A DNA stretch of 64,000 bases from Synechococcus sp. UW105 (GTDB lineage Bacteria > Cyanobacteriota > Cyanobacteriia > PCC-6307 > Cyanobiaceae), in contig NZ_UCNN01000019.1 in the NCBI RefSeq assembly GCF_900473935.1, forward strand, positions 1 through 64,000, read 5' to 3'. Under the pieces are notes generated by a model. The model searched no databases. It worked only from the letters and a program-made list of their open reading frames with translations, and was not told the origin of the DNA. Numbering within the stretch: the first letter of the stretch is position 1; each line of letters opens with the position of its first letter. This document shows positions 56,809-63,196 of the stretch, piece after piece. Both the position numbers and the translations under genes were made by a program.

Positions 56809-57920
56809 TTAATTGACTGAATTCTGTAAACATTCCATCCAATCCTCGCTAGAATTTGCTGGCACAAATGGCCACGAGACATTAGAACCTGAACGGCCTG
56901 GGACGGCACACAACAGCTTTAGTAGAATCTTCCTTGTTTCTTCAGGAGCAAATCCCAGCACCTCTTGACCTGACGTCAGTGGGATTGCTCGCACTCCATG
57001 CCCGACAAGGATCCCATGTATCCCAACTTGATCAGGTGGGCGTTGATCGATGAAGGGTTCATGTAGGGGTGCTTCCCCGTTCTGCCTGTGAAGAACGCAT
57101 AGTCCTGATGACCGTTCAGCGTCCTGAGGTCCTCGAGGACATCAAGGATCTGATTGGTCAGTGGGACGTGATGGTCCTTGTTGTTCTTCATCCGTGAAGC
57201 AGGGACAGTCCAGATCCCTTTCTTCTCATCCAATTCATCCCACCTCAGACCTGCCAAGGAGTTCACCCTCAGGAAAGTGAGGAACAAGACCTTGACCGCT
57301 GACACCACAACGAACGAACCCTTTGGATCGTTCCTCTGCAGAGCGTCAAAGAAGTCAGGCAACTGGTTCCACTCCAGCGTTGGGTGGTGCTTGGGTTCGT
57401 GCATCGACTTGGCACCCTTCGACCCCAGTGCTGGCTTCGGTGGTTGCATCCACCCGTTGTCGATGGCTTGCTCAAACATCGACCTCATCACCATGAGGCA
57501 CTTGTCGGACTGATAGAGCGACCCTCTTGCCTCTATCCCCTTCTTCAGATCCAGGACTTTCTGCCTGCCGCCTTTGTCCCACTAAAAGCGGTTCACAGGT
57601 GACTCCTCACCCAGAACAGGCAACACCTGGTTGAACAGCATGTTGCGGTAGTCGTTCACGGTTGATTGGCGATTCCGTGAACGCTCCAGGTAGTCCTCAG
57701 CGACCGCCTTGATGTTGGGAACAACTGCTTGCTTCTCTACTGCTCTCTTGGCATCTTCCTTTACTGCCCTGGGGTCTTGCCCTTCCTTCCTCTGAAGGTC
57801 CAGACGATCCTTCTCATCCAGTGCTGTCCTGCACCGTCTATTGCTTGTGGTAGGTAAAAAGGTAGGTAATTTCAAGCGATATCGCCCTGAAGTTGTCCAG
57901 GACTGTGTGAGAGCGCCCAA
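56809..57920 (-). pseudogene. int': Degraded tyrosine recombinase of the tRNA-Ser element
   Basis: About 370 codons of an integrase reading toward the element interior from attR. Residues of the N-terminal domain (KAVAEDYLERSRNRQSTVNDY) run into an in-frame TAG (57582-57584) right where the other copy has Glu, and the same frame continues with WDKGGRQKVLDLKKG. The catalytic core keeps LTFLRVNSLAGLRWDEL and QDYAFFTGRTG. A one-base deletion near 56995-57010 then shifts the frame away from GHGVRAIPL, which resumes in the next frame to the end. So it is non-functional as read. Confidence 0.85.
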
Positions 57921-58246: not shown

Positions 58247-59476
58247 TCAATATCTTGCAGATAATTGTTGCTTTTCAACCAGACGGGCAAACACTTGTTG
58301 GCATGTCCAGCGGAGAGGTTGCCAATAGGCTGAATTGGCTAGCTCATAGATGATCTCCATCTGGTCATCAAGGCCAAGTTCAAGGCAAGCCCAGGCTGCC
58401 GCGATCCTTGACTTTGAATATTGGGGAGTTGTTTCTGAAAGAGCTGAACGGACTAAATCACTTTTTTGCTGGAATTTACGTAATCCTATGATGCATGTCA
58501 GGTAATAATGAGTGACATAGTCAGACCAGAGCCTTTCTTGCATGCTTTCGATCAAGTTCAAGCAGCTGTCTTGATCAATCGCCATCAGGCTTAAGGCAGC
58601 CCCATACTGACGCGCCTCATCTCGATGGCTCAGATTTCGCTCGATCTCCGCTGCGTCAAGGTCACATTTCCATTCATCTCGAATGGCGAGATGCTCTGGA
58701 TTATCCGTCAAAAGCTGTTCAAGTAGGGATTGATTCTTTGAGCTTGAAATCGAGCCATTGTAATCAACAATCTCAAAAAAACTTTTTGCTCTTAAAGACA
58801 TCGAAACTGGTGCACGAACTAATCCTTCAAGTCTGCTTTCGTCTCCAGCATCACCGAGATCAATAACTGCGGAGCGCCTTTTGCCTGCAATCAGGTCTGT
58901 AAGTTGTGGAATTAAAGGGTCTAGAAGGTGAGTGTTTCCATAAACCTTGGCTTGATATGCCCTTGCTGCCCCTGCCACTAAAGCACTCTCATGCTGGCAA
59001 AGTGTATTGATCACAGTGCTAGATTTTGAATTTTTTATCTTCAGTCTTGTATGGGCTTGAATGACAGCACGAATCTTTGTCACCTCACCATCAAGTAACG
59101 ATACAAGTATCTCTTGCTCAGCTAGTGTTGGCTCCCAACTGATTCTAACAAGGGCAGAAATCGCATTAATAACAGCCTCTGTATCTGTACATGTTAATAC
59201 TTTTACTAGGGAAGGTATTGCTCGTTTGTCCTTGCGTCTGCCCAGTGCTTCAATGGATTTACGACGGGTTATTCTGTCATATAATTCGTCTATACTAAGG
59301 TTATTGGTGGCTTGAAGTAGAGCATCTAGTGACTCTTCTGTTTGACTAAGACCAAGTCTTGTTGCTGCAAAATATCGATCGGCGGGTCTTTGAACGTTTG
59401 ACGTTTTTTCAAGTAAAAGTGTCAATGCATCGTTCTCACTCATGCCCTCAACAAGAACATCAAATCTCTCAGCCAT
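58247..59476 (-). CDS. mpeW: Phycoerythrin bilin lyase (MpeW/MpeZ/CpeY family, HEAT-repeat)
   Basis: A 409-residue all-helical HEAT/PBS-lyase repeat protein. The N-terminus MAERFDVLVEGMSENDALTLL and the segment ITRRKSIEALGRRKDKRAIPSLVKVL are diagnostic of the CpeY/MpeY/MpeZ/MpeW group, and later GKRRSAVIDLGDAGDESRL, HRDEARQYGAALSLM and SRIAAAWACLELGLDDQ follow the same pattern. These enzymes attach phycoerythrobilin (some isomerise it to phycourobilin) to Cys of phycoerythrin II alpha. Its island context points to MpeW (CA4-B); MpeZ is the alternative and the sequence alone does not separate them for me. A putative operator lies about 160 bases upstream. Confidence 0.75.
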   Translation of the reverse strand: MAERFDVLVEGMSENDALTLLLEKTSNVQRPADRYFAATRLGLSQTEESLDALLQATNNLSIDELYDRITRRKSIEALGRRKDKRAIPSLVKVLTCTDTEAVINAISALVRISWEPTLAEQEILVSLLDGEVTKIRAVIQAHTRLKIKNSKSSTVINTLCQHESALVAGAARAYQAKVYGNTHLLDPLIPQLTDLIAGKRRSAVIDLGDAGDESRLEGLVRAPVSMSLRAKSFFEIVDYNGSISSSKNQSLLEQLLTDNPEHLAIRDEWKCDLDAAEIERNLSHRDEARQYGAALSLMAIDQDSCLNLIESMQERLWSDYVTHYYLTCIIGLRKFQQKSDLVRSALSETTPQYSKSRIAAAWACLELGLDDQMEIIYELANSAYWQPLRWTCQQVFARLVEKQQLSARY

Positions 59477-59841
59477 CGGAACTAATTGATTATTTTTTTA
59501 TTCTATCTAGAATAGGATTCAATATTTAAATTTATGTATTTCATATCTCCTGTCTAGCGCTTTCCTTATTTGCGAGGGAATGTAAACCATAAATTCAATA
59601 TTTCCATATGCGTACAAAAGCATTTTTGCTCTGCATCAACGCATGATTGACATCTGACGCAATTGTGCAAATGTGTTTCCTCATGTGATCACGGCGAAGA
59701 GGGAGCCAGTGGCAAGCCCAAGCAGACGCATTAATCACAAGGCGGATTCGCATAATCATCTCAGCAATGATTGCGATCTACCTGTTGAAATCGATGTCGG
59801 TTTTAATGGATTTAGTTCTTCTGAATATGTATTCTAGAAGA
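59477..59841 (-). promoter_or_regulatory. Regulatory region upstream of the bilin lyase
   Basis: A 365-base intergenic region containing, in lyase orientation, AATTGCGTC, a 12-nt spacer and TGCGTTGATG (plus-strand coordinates 59634-59664), and the wider 15-mer TGACGCAATTGTGCA at 59655-59669. The same pieces occur in the fci/Nif11 divergent promoter. It also contains two CGCAT(TA)ATCA-like repeats around 59725-59750. No gene is evident. Confidence 0.6.
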
Positions 59842-60012
59842 CTATTTTGAACGGTTGTCAATCAATTCAATTAAATGTGCATCATGCTTGACGCAAAAGT
59901 CGGAAACGCACTGCCTTAAGATATGTCCGATTGAAACTGATTCTGTATAGCAAAGTAGCTTTAGCTTTTTGTGCAGCTCGTCACTTAGCTCAAAAGTTAC
60001 CCTTTTCATTCT
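59842..60012 (-). CDS. Small ribbon-helix-helix-like protein (unk10 position)
   Basis: A 56-residue protein starting MKRVTFELSDELHKKLKLLC. The beta strand plus two helices (VTFELSDELHKKLKLLCYTE and SIGHILRQCVSDF) are the signature of ribbon-helix-helix (Arc/MetJ-type) DNA-binding proteins. The inner Met is chosen over a start 32 codons upstream because the RHH strand begins right there. It lies between the lyase and the AraC genes, the place held by the uncharacterised unk10 in CA4 islands, but I cannot confirm homology to it. It could be a third regulator. Confidence 0.55.
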   Translation of the reverse strand, partial: RMKRVTFELSDELHKKLKLLCYTESVSIGHILRQCVSDFCVKHDAHLIELIDNRSK

Positions 60013-60204
60013 TGACTGAGCAATAAACGCAGGTGTTAATGGCACTCGAAAGAGCCATGTTTTAACTATTTTACTCTTTTTGATAAGAAATGGATACGCC
60101 CTTGTCAAGCTTCACTAATTGTTGCAATTGCCCTCGCGTTGGGGCGGATGTGTCGTAGCAGGCCCTCTCAGCATCCTGTCTTTGGCTGCAAAAAGATGAT
60201 TTCT

Positions 60205-61149
60205 TTAGTCATCAAGTGTTTGACTCGGTAATTCACCAAAGGCTGTGAAATATCTCCTCGAAAATCTGCCTTGATGCTTAAAGCCAAAACGGATTGCTAT
60301 TTCACGTATCACACTAGTAGTATTAGGCATATTGACCTTTTGATATAACATTTCTCTTCTAGCCTCCTCCAGTCGTACCTGGGTCATCATTTCTATGACT
60401 CCCATACCAAAATGATCCTGACACACTCTGTATAGAGAGGCCTGACCAGCATTTAACTGCTGACAAACATCCGATAATGTCATTGGAGTTTTCATCTTAT
60501 TGATATCATGTGAAAGGTTGACAATTTCACCGAGTAAGCGTTGATTTTTAGCCTCTCCCTTCTTGTACAACCTTTTTCCACCTTCTTCCAGGCAAGCAAT
60601 CATCAGATCATAATATTTAGATGGGTTAGAGATGCCTTTGATAAGGTCTCTGCGTGTTAGCCGTCTTAATTGTGAGAATGCTTCGGTATTGACATCAATC
60701 CCTCTGGATTTGCTTAGATTTTCGATGGCTGTTTTGGCATGACACTTTTTGAGAGCGTCTAATAATATTTGCTTATTAAGCATGCAAGCAGTAGAGGAGC
60801 ACGCCCCTGAGTATTTACCCCAAGAGCCACCTGGCATTGTATTCAGAGTATTCAATCCTCCGATACTATTCGGACTCATTTCATAGCCTTCACAGTAGCC
60901 AAAGGGTGTACTTGATTTATGTTTCGGAGTAATCCAATTGAAATCAACTGACCAATCCGTACCCCAGCCCTCATATAACAACGGTTTGGTCGCGCTGATC
61001 TCTGCGATCGCAATGCCAGATGATCTTTTGTGGGCCATTGTATATTGACCCTCTCCATTTTCAAGCTGTGTAATTCTGGTGACTTGACCAAGTTCCTGCA
61101 GAGTTTCAGAAAGTTGCAGTGGATCTTCGTAGGCGAGTGATATTTTCAT
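60205..61149 (-). CDS. fciB: AraC-type regulator, second of tandem pair (FciA/FciB-like)
   Basis: A 314-residue AraC/XylS-family protein. The C-terminal dual HTH domain (about 215-314: MTLSDVCQQLNAGQASLYRVCQDHFGMGVIEMM then RLEEARREML and VIREIAIRFGFKHQGRFSRRYFTAFGELPSQ) is complete. The N-terminal 200 residues form a sensor-type domain with Trp-rich YEGWGTDWSVDFNWITP. Its ATG overlaps the upstream AraC gene by 4 bases, so both are made together. Tandem AraC regulators on a CA4 island are FciA and FciB; which of the two this is I assign tentatively by order. Confidence 0.7.
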   Translation of the reverse strand: MKISLAYEDPLQLSETLQELGQVTRITQLENGEGQYTMAHKRSSGIAIAEISATKPLLYEGWGTDWSVDFNWITPKHKSSTPFGYCEGYEMSPNSIGGLNTLNTMPGGSWGKYSGACSSTACMLNKQILLDALKKCHAKTAIENLSKSRGIDVNTEAFSQLRRLTRRDLIKGISNPSKYYDLMIACLEEGGKRLYKKGEAKNQRLLGEIVNLSHDINKMKTPMTLSDVCQQLNAGQASLYRVCQDHFGMGVIEMMTQVRLEEARREMLYQKVNMPNTTSVIREIAIRFGFKHQGRFSRRYFTAFGELPSQTLDD

Positions 61150-62180
61150 GCCCTACTCCCTCTAAATAGGTCAGAAATTAAGACATTGATCTTACTCGCC
61201 TTCTCAATTGTCTCTTCTGGACTTTCTTGATATGTCTTATAATAAAGACGTTGAAATGAGTTCCAATTTTTAAATCCATAGTATAAAGCATTATGCTGCT
61301 TGGTAAATTGCTTTAGACCTTTAGGTACGTGTGGATTCAAATATGATTTTTTGACTTGTTCTAGCCTGATGCTTTTTATTAAATCAAGGATATTCATATT
61401 GAAGTTCGTTCTGCAAGCTTGACCAAGCGAATCCTTTTCAGAATTTAGGTATTTGCTGATTTGCCCCACTGTCAATGGTGGCAAGCCTTCCCTGTCTTCA
61501 TGCAATAACTTCACTAGGTCTTCAATCAGTTCAGTGGTTTCTGATCTCTCAGTTAACTGGTTTTGCTTTTCACAAGGTTCTTCTAGTGTTGCTATTGCTA
61601 AATCATAAAAATCATCGGATCTTCTCACTCCCTTTGTAAAATGCGTTTGGAATAGCATTTTAAGTTGTTTGCTCGCATTGCTGTTTGAGTCAATCCCGAT
61701 ACATTCTTCAAGCCGAGCATAGGCATTGTAAGCATTCATGTTGTCTATCTTTTCTTTCATCTTTTCCCACTTCAGGCTCATGCAGCACAGCAGAGTATTG
61801 GCTCCAACAATATCCCATATATTCCCACCTGTTTTGTTGATGCGATTGAAGCCAGCAATGCTTAAATCTTTCATTTTATGGCCACTTATAATTGTATTGC
61901 TCCCGAGGCTTTCCCCTTGGTTATTTATCCAGCAAAATGCAACAGAGTTTTGATTTGCCTCTTCTTCGTAGAGTAATGTTTGATTTGACTTGAAAATTTC
62001 AAGATGCACATTGTTGATTGGTGCGCAGATTGAACTCGTTAGCAGCTCACCTTTGCTGAGCTGCGTGATATTGCATGAAAAATTTGACTTGGAATAGTAT
62101 TCATTGTAGTGATTCTTGCAATATGACTCCATTCCAAGTAAATCGCTGAAGATATATTCTTTTGCTTTTCTTGCTTTCAT
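61146..62180 (-). CDS. fciA: AraC-type regulator, first of tandem pair (FciA/FciB-like)
   Basis: A 344-residue protein with a more divergent AraC-like C-terminus (PPLTVGQISKYLNSEKDSLGQACRTNFNMNILDLI then NALYYGFKNWNSFQRLYYKTYQESPEE, about residues 235-325) and a paralogous N-terminal half. A similar ILYEEEANQ/CCMSLKW and GGNIWDIVGANTLLC layout parallels the downstream regulator. The divergence of the second HTH from the AraC consensus (no clear IAxxxGF) may alter DNA binding. Divergent from the Nif11 gene with a 330-base intergenic region. The FciA label follows gene order only. Confidence 0.65.
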   Translation of the reverse strand: MKARKAKEYIFSDLLGMESYCKNHYNEYYSKSNFSCNITQLSKGELLTSSICAPINNVHLEIFKSNQTLLYEEEANQNSVAFCWINNQGESLGSNTIISGHKMKDLSIAGFNRINKTGGNIWDIVGANTLLCCMSLKWEKMKEKIDNMNAYNAYARLEECIGIDSNSNASKQLKMLFQTHFTKGVRRSDDFYDLAIATLEEPCEKQNQLTERSETTELIEDLVKLLHEDREGLPPLTVGQISKYLNSEKDSLGQACRTNFNMNILDLIKSIRLEQVKKSYLNPHVPKGLKQFTKQHNALYYGFKNWNSFQRLYYKTYQESPEETIEKASKINVLISDLFRGSRA

Positions 62181-62510
62181 CTTTGCTGTCCCCTAAAGAG
62201 TTGGTTGAGCATTTCTATAGGTTTTTATATATTAGCCTCTTTTTTGACTGTTTTCAGTTGCGTGAACTTCTTTGACTGTTGCGCTTTCCGGCCAGGCGAG
62301 CTCCCGAATGCTCCATGTTGCGTTATGTTGTGTTGCTGGGGATCCAGCCATGCCCTGTGCAATGACGCAAGTGTGCATTGACGCTCCTCTTATTTTCTAA
62401 ATTGCGTCCTTCTTAGGTGCGTTGATGATTCACTATTAAAAACAGTACTTCTATTTGGGCTCCCATTTCTGACTGGTTCGGTGTATGAATGACCTAGAGG
62501 TGCAAATGCC
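62181..62510. promoter_or_regulatory. Divergent regulatory region of fci genes and Nif11 gene
   Basis: Plus strand: TGACGCAAGTGTGCA at 62363-62377, another TGACGC at 62379-62384, then AATTGCGTC at 62400-62408, a 9-nt gap, and TGCGTTGATG at 62418-62427, 84 bases before the Nif11 ATG. The last two are the same composite found upstream of the lyase. It contains no gene. Confidence 0.65.
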
Positions 62511-62834
62511 ATGTCTAAAGAACAGTTGCATGCATTTATTGACAGGGCACGCGCTGATGAAAACTTTCGTTCTCAGCTTGCCACGCTAGATCCTCAGCAA
62601 ATCATCGACTTTGCTGCTCAAAATGGCTTTGATTTTTCGGATGAAATCAAAGGGAGATTTATTAATCGGTGGAAAGGTGTTTATTTTTGCCCACAGGCCA
62701 TTGAGGTTGGCCAACTGTGTCCGGGATTGGTGCCAGAAGGTTATAAAAATCTGATTCACTATGCGCAAACCACCTGTAGTTCTTCCACTCTCAAGGAAGA
62801 GGAGAATGATTTTCGATCAGGTCAGCGATATTAG
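62511..62834 (+). CDS. Nif11-type leader-domain protein
   Basis: A 107-residue protein. Residues 1-49 (MSKEQLHAFIDRARADENFRSQLATLDPQQIIDFAAQNGFDFS) are a Nif11 domain, known as the leader of many RiPP precursors in cyanobacteria. The rest (about 50-107) has three Cys (VYFCPQ, QLCPGL, QTTCSS) and no GG cleavage site at the domain end, so it may not be a matured peptide. No lanthionine synthetase or transporter is in this window. It is divergent from the regulators. It could be a signalling or precursor peptide tied to chromatic acclimation. Confidence 0.8.
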   Translation: MSKEQLHAFIDRARADENFRSQLATLDPQQIIDFAAQNGFDFSDEIKGRFINRWKGVYFCPQAIEVGQLCPGLVPEGYKNLIHYAQTTCSSSTLKEEENDFRSGQRY

Positions 62835-63196
62835 TGGTTTTGTGTAGAAAATAATTTTAGGATTGCAAGTGGGATTGCTCGAGCTGCAGAGCAGTCTGTT
62901 GATTCGAGCATCACAGGTGGTGCCATTCCGTCACGCCTTGCTTGATCCCATCGTGACGAGCATAAACACCAATGATCACCAGGTTTGAGTCCTGGAAAAT
63001 CGAGGAATGGGATCGGATCAATGAGATTATTGCCCTGAGAATACGTGTAGGAAAGAAAGTTTTCAGTCATGATGCAACACACTGAATGGTTGCCTAAGTC
63101 TGAGGGGTCTGTTCTGCAGTAACCATCCAAGTACCACCCCGTTATTGGCTTGCAGCCACATTCGAGCAATGGTTCTCCGAATACATTTAATAGCAT
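62831..63196 (-). CDS. DUF2237 family protein
   Basis: A 121-residue cysteine-rich protein: NVFGEPLLECGCKPITGWYLDGYCRTDPSDLGNHSVCCIMTENFL, then FPGLKPGDHWCLCSSRWDQARRDGMAPPVMLEST. This is the DUF2237 pattern, found in many bacteria, whose function is unknown (the conserved cysteines suggest metal or redox chemistry). It overlaps the 3' end of the Nif11 gene by 4 bases on the opposite strand and marks the edge of the island. Confidence 0.9.
   Translation of the reverse strand: MLLNVFGEPLLECGCKPITGWYLDGYCRTDPSDLGNHSVCCIMTENFLSYTYSQGNNLIDPIPFLDFPGLKPGDHWCLCSSRWDQARRDGMAPPVMLESTDCSAARAIPLAILKLFSTQNH

Follow-up and report, generated by a model that had tools for sequence, protein, structure and literature searches.

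The window analysed here, a stretch of 64,000 nucleotides of Synechococcus sp. UW105 (contig NZ_UCNN01000019.1, positions 1 to 64,000), carries a CA4-A chromatic acclimation island whose gene order is the one published by Humily et al. (2013, PMC3877281), from whom the gene names are taken. Comparison with other islands revealed two cis-elements, whose sequences, distribution and geometry were computed directly. The first is an 18-bp AraC-type operator, TATCC-N6-TTATCA, whose presence upstream of fciC we regard as nearly certain; the second is a degenerate element made of YGCA boxes in the mpeZ and unk10/fciA promoters of CA4-A islands, which is probably real. Blue light activates CA4-A, green light CA4-B (PMC10904595), and these opposite responses may have a testable cause in the location of the operator, which lies at the lyase gene in the latter type and at fciC in the former.

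The genes concerned are the following:

58247..59476, minus strand: mpeZ-type phycobilin lyase gene, with HEAT/PBS-lyase repeats (Pfam) and a CpeY match below cut-off (NCBIfam); the name rests on the CA4-A layout of the island
59845..60009, minus strand: fciC, encoding a 55-aa ribbon-helix-helix (RHH) protein (MKRVTFEL...)
60205..61149, minus strand: fciB, AraC family (HTH_18, E 4e-16)
61146..62180, minus strand: fciA, AraC family (HTH_18, E 4e-6, below cut-off)
62511..62834, plus strand: unk10, Nif11 domain (Nif11, E 2e-12)

Homologues of FciA (E 1e-40 or better) were found in 28 of 400 genomes of the family. Nineteen of these have the CA4-A layout (unk10 divergent from fciA, fciC present, with an MpeZ match in 17 of them) and nine the CA4-B layout (unk10 divergent from an mpeW-type lyase gene, without fciC), so that fciC occurs in 19 of 19 islands of the former type and in 0 of 9 of the latter. 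The CA4-A promoters form two sets, R1 (19 unk10/fciA promoters) and R2 (17 mpeZ promoters; L063 and L076, in which there is no MpeZ match, contributed none). Four loci that appear to repeat counted genomes (L003, L005-L007) were mapped and kept out of the motif counts. A search of IMG/VR for additional islands found none.

In the CA4-B promoters, ATC/GAT pairs at spacings 11, 21 and 32 (z 10.2, 6.0 and 5.8) took three of the four highest places among 704 tests, spacing 11 being the highest. The 18-bp motif of these promoters, NTRTCCRSTWMTTATCAR (TATCC-N6-TTATCA), consists of two TATC half-sites 11 bp apart, and joint expectation-maximization (EM) over the nine islands gave a log-likelihood of 124.3 at width 18, against 94.0-106.1 with one promoter set reversed. 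All nine islands have the operator at unk10, and eight of nine have it at fciA; at mpeW it is likewise present in eight of nine, namely those whose unk10-mpeW region is of full length. Within the unk10-mpeW regions the highest-scoring lag is 21 (z 6.4). AraC proteins possess two helices that read boxes about 10-11 bp apart.

A matrix derived from CA4-B islands only was scanned at a threshold of at least 11 bits over the 328,026 nt of all 28 islands. It matched just upstream of fciC in 19 of 19 CA4-A islands (17.2-27.5 bits), and at this threshold gave no match at the mpeZ or unk10/fciA promoters of these islands; the other CA4-A matches were three in number, each of at most 13.3 bits, and the reversed control produced one match in 328 kb. 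Scored on the CA4-A unk10/fciA and mpeZ promoters themselves, the same matrix remained at control level, bar one 7.6-bit match (L068). Each CA4-A island contains a single copy, located at the -35 position of a putative fciC promoter, and the distance from its end to a -10-like TANNNT is exactly 7 nt in all 19. In the window this arrangement is represented by:

60080..60097, minus strand: AraC-type operator GTATCCATTTCTTATCAA upstream of fciC, 24.4 bits with the CA4-B-trained matrix and the sole strict-pattern match in its own genome
60068..60073, minus strand: -10-like TAAAAT of the putative fciC promoter, 7 nt beyond the operator

Class II activator sites stand in this position relative to the -10 box, and such geometry is exemplified by araI and the MarA boxes. 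The CA4 operator resembles these AraC/XylS class II operators in its half-sites about one helical turn apart and, at fciC, in covering the -35 position with a constant spacing to a -10-like sequence; at CA4-B unk10, though not upstream of CA4-B fciA, it also shares the copies placed 21 bp apart. It differs from them in having its own sequence and, in CA4-A, in being a single copy that precedes a regulator gene and not the lyase gene.

In its strict form, TATCCRNTTYTTAYCAR, the operator occurs in 26 of the 28 FciA genomes and in five of the 372 others (Fisher p 1.3e-33, a value uncorrected for phylogeny and obtained with a pattern written after the sites had been seen); the same pattern written backwards was found in 4 of 400 genomes. 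Among the FciA genomes only one strict match lies outside an island (G001). The distribution is complemented by five genomes (L093-L097) in which unk10, fciC and mpeZ lie side by side without fciAB. In all five the middle of the operator, CCATTTCTT, is kept at fciC and both TATC half-sites are mutated, a decay that fits the loss of the binder, with the qualification that the five islands may descend from one ancestral loss. The main FciA/FciB operator is probably this TATCC-N6-TTATCA sequence, as a putative binding site, and not the YGCA element.

The YGCA element, approximately YGCA-RTTN-TGCR-NTKR-YGCA, has boxes that often follow one another in 8-bp steps and is found in the CA4-A mpeZ promoters and the divergent unk10/fciA promoters. 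Of 949 tests that combined trinucleotides with spacings, same-strand GCA/TGC at spacing 8 came out strongest, with 18.4 where 5.7 were expected (z 7.3). Taken separately, it ranked first in R2 (z 6.1) and ninth in R1 (z 3.3); it was not enriched in the CA4-B promoters (z -1.4), and in other intergenic DNA of the same loci its z was 0.4. Period 8 was also the top lag in the self-similarity of R2 (z 4.8). Our own both-strand, clade-weighted EM motif finder, run on R1 and R2 jointly, returned a 20-bp motif, about YGCARTTNTGCRNTKRYGCA, with a joint log-likelihood of 98.8 at width 20, against 69.5 when R2 was reversed and at most 70.5 for 12 block-shuffled R2 sets. Of 36 held-out regions, 35 scored higher than their reversed controls, the promoters within one clade not being independent of each other. 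On the CA4-B promoters and in the fciB-fciC gap the YGCA matrix gave only control-level scores, bar one 11.9-bit match (L070).

In the window, a held-out 20-bp matrix trained on the other eight clades scored 17.3 bits at 59629-59648 (6.7 bits reversed) and 9.7 bits at 62361-62380 (5.4 bits reversed); the second-best match in the latter region, at 62405-62424, reached 7.9 bits. The corresponding empirical p is 0.00 for the R2 promoter (a score reached by none of the 56 intergenic controls) and 0.18 for the R1 promoter. With the window clade held out, 120 starts of the EM returned a different motif, and 250 starts at width 20 recovered the element in four of four seeds. The two occurrences are:

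59629..59680, minus strand: YGCA element of the mpeZ promoter, with AATCATGCGTTGATGCAGAG at 59629-59648 and the octamers TTGCACAA|TTGCGTCA; it encloses 59634-59664, to which we return below
62356..62387, plus strand: YGCA octamer array of the fciA-unk10 gap, TGTGCAATGACGCAAG|TGTGCATTGACGCTCC, including TGACGCAAGTGTGCA noted previously; weak alone

The element is supported as a set and is weak promoter by promoter. Its sharing suggests common control of the lyase and unk10/fciA promoters.

Which protein acts on which element, and with what sign, can be proposed from the sequences as follows. In CA4-B, FciA and/or FciB would control mpeW directly through TATCC-N6-TTATCA, and in CA4-A they would act on fciC instead of the lyase promoter. 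The reader of the shared operator is probably FciB in both island types; it is the simplest candidate because its recognition helices are nearly identical in CA4-A and CA4-B, while those of FciA differ (as judged from an alignment in which the FciA row of L063 is a fragment, owing to a stop in the gene). The operator has the same orientation relative to the gene at fciC and mpeW, and the opposite one at unk10 and fciA; fciC therefore probably follows mpeW. FciC would in turn bind the tandem YGCA octamers and repress mpeZ and the fciABC/unk10 promoter. Its repression of mpeZ in green light would lead to the reported blue-on behaviour, and the inserted repressor would thus convert an output switched on by green light (mpeW) into one switched on by blue light (mpeZ).

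As the best explanation of the whole (the operator at fciC, FciC on YGCA, and the inversion), we consider this scheme to have an even chance of being correct. Inversion of the logic through FciC, taken alone, falls slightly short of that, and so does, separately, the putative binding of FciC to the YGCA element. A more specific version, in which the same FciA/FciB site has moved in CA4-A to the inserted repressor gene fciC while FciC reads a separate code of tandem octamers, present at mpeZ and in the promoter of the regulators themselves, is advanced tentatively. These gradings overlap with those of the alternatives discussed below, several of which share parts of the wiring.

The RHH domain of FciC was stated by Humily et al. 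(PMC3877281). In our analyses the protein matched ParG in Pfam below the cut-off (E 0.0018), and three matches to PDB sequences had E 0.26-0.98 (ParG 0.35); the best AlphaFold2 model reached a pLDDT (predicted local distance difference test) of 87, the other four 68-77, and a fold search pointed, at weak E-values, towards RHH proteins. The met boxes of MetJ are 8-bp sites of an RHH protein. Arrays of short boxes coated by RHH proteins are also represented by the ParG tetramer boxes with AT-rich spacers (PMC7308502) and the omega/ParB heptads (PMC9499535). The YGCA element resembles these tandem-repeat operators in its short boxes, which tend to follow one another in 8-bp steps at mpeZ and do so less clearly at unk10/fciA, and in lying in an island that has a gene for an RHH protein, FciC, weakly matching ParG; it differs from them in that its boxes are degenerate and irregular and the binding of FciC is putative.

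Several observations weigh against the proposed scheme. As regards the AraC-type operator, one CA4-B island (L085) is without a site at fciA, and its unk10-mpeW region, only 138 nt long, has sites near unk10; lag 21 is not seen in the CA4-B fciA upstream regions; and the operator at unk10 persists in three genomes devoid of fciAB (G186, G139 and G010). As regards the YGCA element, the exact spacing of 8 is missing from many single promoters, control intergenic DNA is also raised at spacing 16 (z 2.1), and R1 shows lag 8 with a z of only 2.3, lag 23 being higher (z 3.3). Four of the 36 held-out scores mentioned above belong to a run in which another motif was returned; of the four seeds at width 16, one gave the window a lower score than its reversed control; and the held-out promoters, compared with 56 real intergenic segments, have a median empirical p of 0.098. 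As regards FciC, its Foldseek neighbours (CopA_SO, CopG and Arc) are weak, with E 0.037 or higher, and the monomer model has no strand assigned. Finally, the five islands without fciAB keep FciC, with 87-93% identity to that of the window, and yet their YGCA element is at control level. It is this conservation of FciC, in islands where the YGCA element is lost, that speaks most strongly against the binding of YGCA by FciC.

An alternative is a division of labour between the AraC proteins, in which YGCA would be the operator of an A-type FciA and TATCC-N6-TTATCA that of FciB, FciC acting elsewhere. The YGCA element could still be such an A-type FciA site: besides its control-level score where fciAB is missing and fciC retained, the differing helices of FciA and nearly constant ones of FciB match one differing and one constant element, and the earlier idea of an AraC protein linking mpeZ, unk10 and fciA would be kept. 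On the other hand, 8-bp phasing is unusual for AraC proteins, and the five islands may count as a single event. We regard this division as somewhat unlikely.

The element must also be distinguished from coincidence, and here the initial annotation is relevant. It had pointed out a composite, AATTGCGTC followed by TGCGTTGATG, shared by the lyase and unk10/fciA promoters, and both copies lie where it placed them, AATTGCGTC-N12-TGCGTTGATG at 59634-59664 (minus strand) and the second as follows:

62400..62427, plus strand: composite AATTGCGTC-N9-TGCGTTGATG in the unk10/fciA promoter, overlapping the second-best held-out matrix match

Its further match, TGACGCAA-N-TGTGCA at 59655-59669 and 62363-62377 (plus strand), likewise has 14 of 15 bases equal. 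With spacers of 6-16 the composite has only these two copies, in the window as in the whole 2.66-Mb genome. The two shared strings are not independent, because they overlap at the mpeZ site, AATTGCGTC there being the same TGACGCAATT in reverse complement. The sharing had been called unlikely by chance; the probability is indeed small but not negligible, since, when pairs of window segments of 330 and 368 nt were drawn at random 20,000 times, 27 pairs contained two collinear shared words totalling at least 19 letters (pairs lying less than 800 nt apart were passed over, which leaves slightly fewer than 20,000 scored). Without gaps, the two promoters of the window match best with p=0.033 against 60 shuffles, and the best local match gave p<0.05 against shuffles in three of 17 CA4-A islands (W, L059 and L074); between the unk10-mpeW region and the fciA upstream region of CA4-B this was the case in two of nine islands. 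The sharing is thus invisible to simple alignment, and a motif model is needed.

The exact composite is not conserved. It is absent from all 27 other FciA genomes, although it had been expected upstream of orthologous lyase genes. A regulon defined by it was sought in the own genome and, in the relaxed form TTGCGTC-N6-22-TGCGTTGATG, in the 400 family genomes and was rejected: two of the 400 match, the own genome and G210, the latter without an FciA match. Even in the nearest relative, the sister strain G029 (FciA 98% identical), it is altered at both promoters, to AATTGCATT..TACATTGATG at unk10 and TTTGCGTC..TGTGGTTATG at mpeZ, with TGACGCAA-N-TGTGCA retained at all four sites of the two strains. 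A common element linking the lyase and unk10/fciA promoters therefore stands in its degenerate form, across the CA4-A set, and not as the exact composite, which is the window's copy of the degenerate element, one genome's version of it.

Taking into account that the composite is unique to its own genome among FciA genomes, that composites of this kind do arise in random draws and that 20 of the 36 held-out promoters miss p 0.05 against intergenic controls, one may suppose that the YGCA similarity is an effect of composition or sampling, the composite a chance match, and only the TATCC operator real. We consider this unlikely: the joint likelihood is far above that of the reversed and block-shuffled controls, spacing 8 leads its 949 tests and is flat in control intergenic DNA, and 16 of the 36 held-out promoters do have p<0.05.

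The sign of the action of FciC could also be the opposite of that in our scheme. FciC would then activate mpeZ, and FciA/FciB would act on fciC with the sign reversed as well, the wiring being otherwise the same. RHH proteins of the size of FciC are mostly repressors, which counts against an activator, and those five islands that keep an intact FciC and mpeZ without fciAB have lost the YGCA element. The intact FciC itself can be read in favour of activation. In the same sense, BIOS-E4-1, which is likewise without fciAB, is reported to have an unregulated mpeZ and to be locked in the blue phenotype (PMC3877281, PMC9705338), so that FciC may be needed for expression; Humily et al. (PMC3877281), however, suggest repression of mpeZ in green light. 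An activating FciC appears to us decidedly unlikely.

The reading of AATTGCGTC-N-TGCGTTGATG as the FciA/FciB operator of the island, as originally written, has in its favour the exact sharing between both promoters of its own genome; it is highly improbable, given its absence from the other FciA genomes and the fact that the AraC-type element that tracks fciAB is TATCC-N6-TTATCA, upstream of fciC in CA4-A.

A role of FciC in the opposite regulation of the two lyases has been suggested before. Humily et al. (PMC3877281) proposed that it might contribute to mpeZ and mpeW being expressed in opposite ways, mpeW being 36- to 1150-fold higher in green light, and PMC10904595 likewise proposed that FciC might account for the opposite light responses. 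Each island is reported to encode an activator and a repressor (PMC9705338). No description of an operator of CA4 islands was found in Humily et al. (PMC3877281), whose main text uses "promoter" once and "intergenic" never, or elsewhere in the open-licence PMC literature; the PNAS papers of 2016, 2019 and 2021 or their supplements may describe one. As far as our searches of the open-licence literature show, what is new is the cis-element evidence, the role of FciC itself having already been suggested (PMC3877281, PMC10904595). The proposed order of events in CA4-A recalls the tandem AraC cascade RhaR-RhaS, an analogy raised in PMC3877281, in that two adjacent AraC regulators exert staged control, and differs from it in that the second stage would be an output-inverting RHH protein, not a second AraC activator.

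The 18-bp operator, conserved but placed at different genes in the two island types, and decayed in the five islands that have lost the regulators, supplies a concrete and testable wiring diagram. If this diagram is correct, one added small gene and one moved operator would be enough to invert the sensory switch, from green-on to blue-on, of an island that is exchanged horizontally. Knockouts of fciA and fciB are reported to be opposite in effect (2016 PNAS abstract), which fits a shared target. Over 40% of the marine Synechococcus on the Tara Oceans transect are reported to be chromatic acclimaters (PMC10904595).

Several further sequences lie close to the elements described. In the three fciAB-less genomes G186, G139 and G010, operator-like CTATCCGCTTTTTACCAG occurs just upstream of unk10 (L086 6062, L087 6065 and L088 5955) and is possibly a CA4-B remnant; the other two of the five non-FciA genomes with the strict form have no CA4 gene within the 12 kb taken. 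The copy outside the island in the CA4-A genome G001 (L089 5998-6015, G001:C1; 24.5 bits) is located between divergent LysR-like genes, with an open reading frame for a Nif11-domain protein nearby. In the fciB-fciC gaps of L070, L071 and L073 a near-palindrome, GCTTTGTAAAGC, is present about 20 nt upstream of the fciC operator, and in the unk10-fciC gaps of the fciAB-less L093-L097 a related GCTTTGTRAACTG remains where the operator has decayed. The near-palindrome might be the site of FciC itself.

Beyond unk10 the window continues with:

62831-63196, minus strand: unk14, DUF2237 gene

A search for tRNA genes between 55000 and 64000 found none. Two islands are broken: that of L063 (G006) has the stop in fciA and no MpeZ match, and of that of L092 (G021) just fragments of fciA, fciB and fciC are left, the 18 kb taken containing no match to unk10 or mpeZ. 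L004 (JAAGZR010000292.1), a short contig ending after fciB that was mapped and likewise kept out of the motif counts, belongs to a metagenome-assembled genome labelled Aliivibrio sp. and carries CA4-A unk10, fciA and fciB, which looks like misbinning. Near the mpeZ end of the window's island there is a partial phage-integrase open reading frame (56976-57494, minus strand; Pfam E 1.7e-11).

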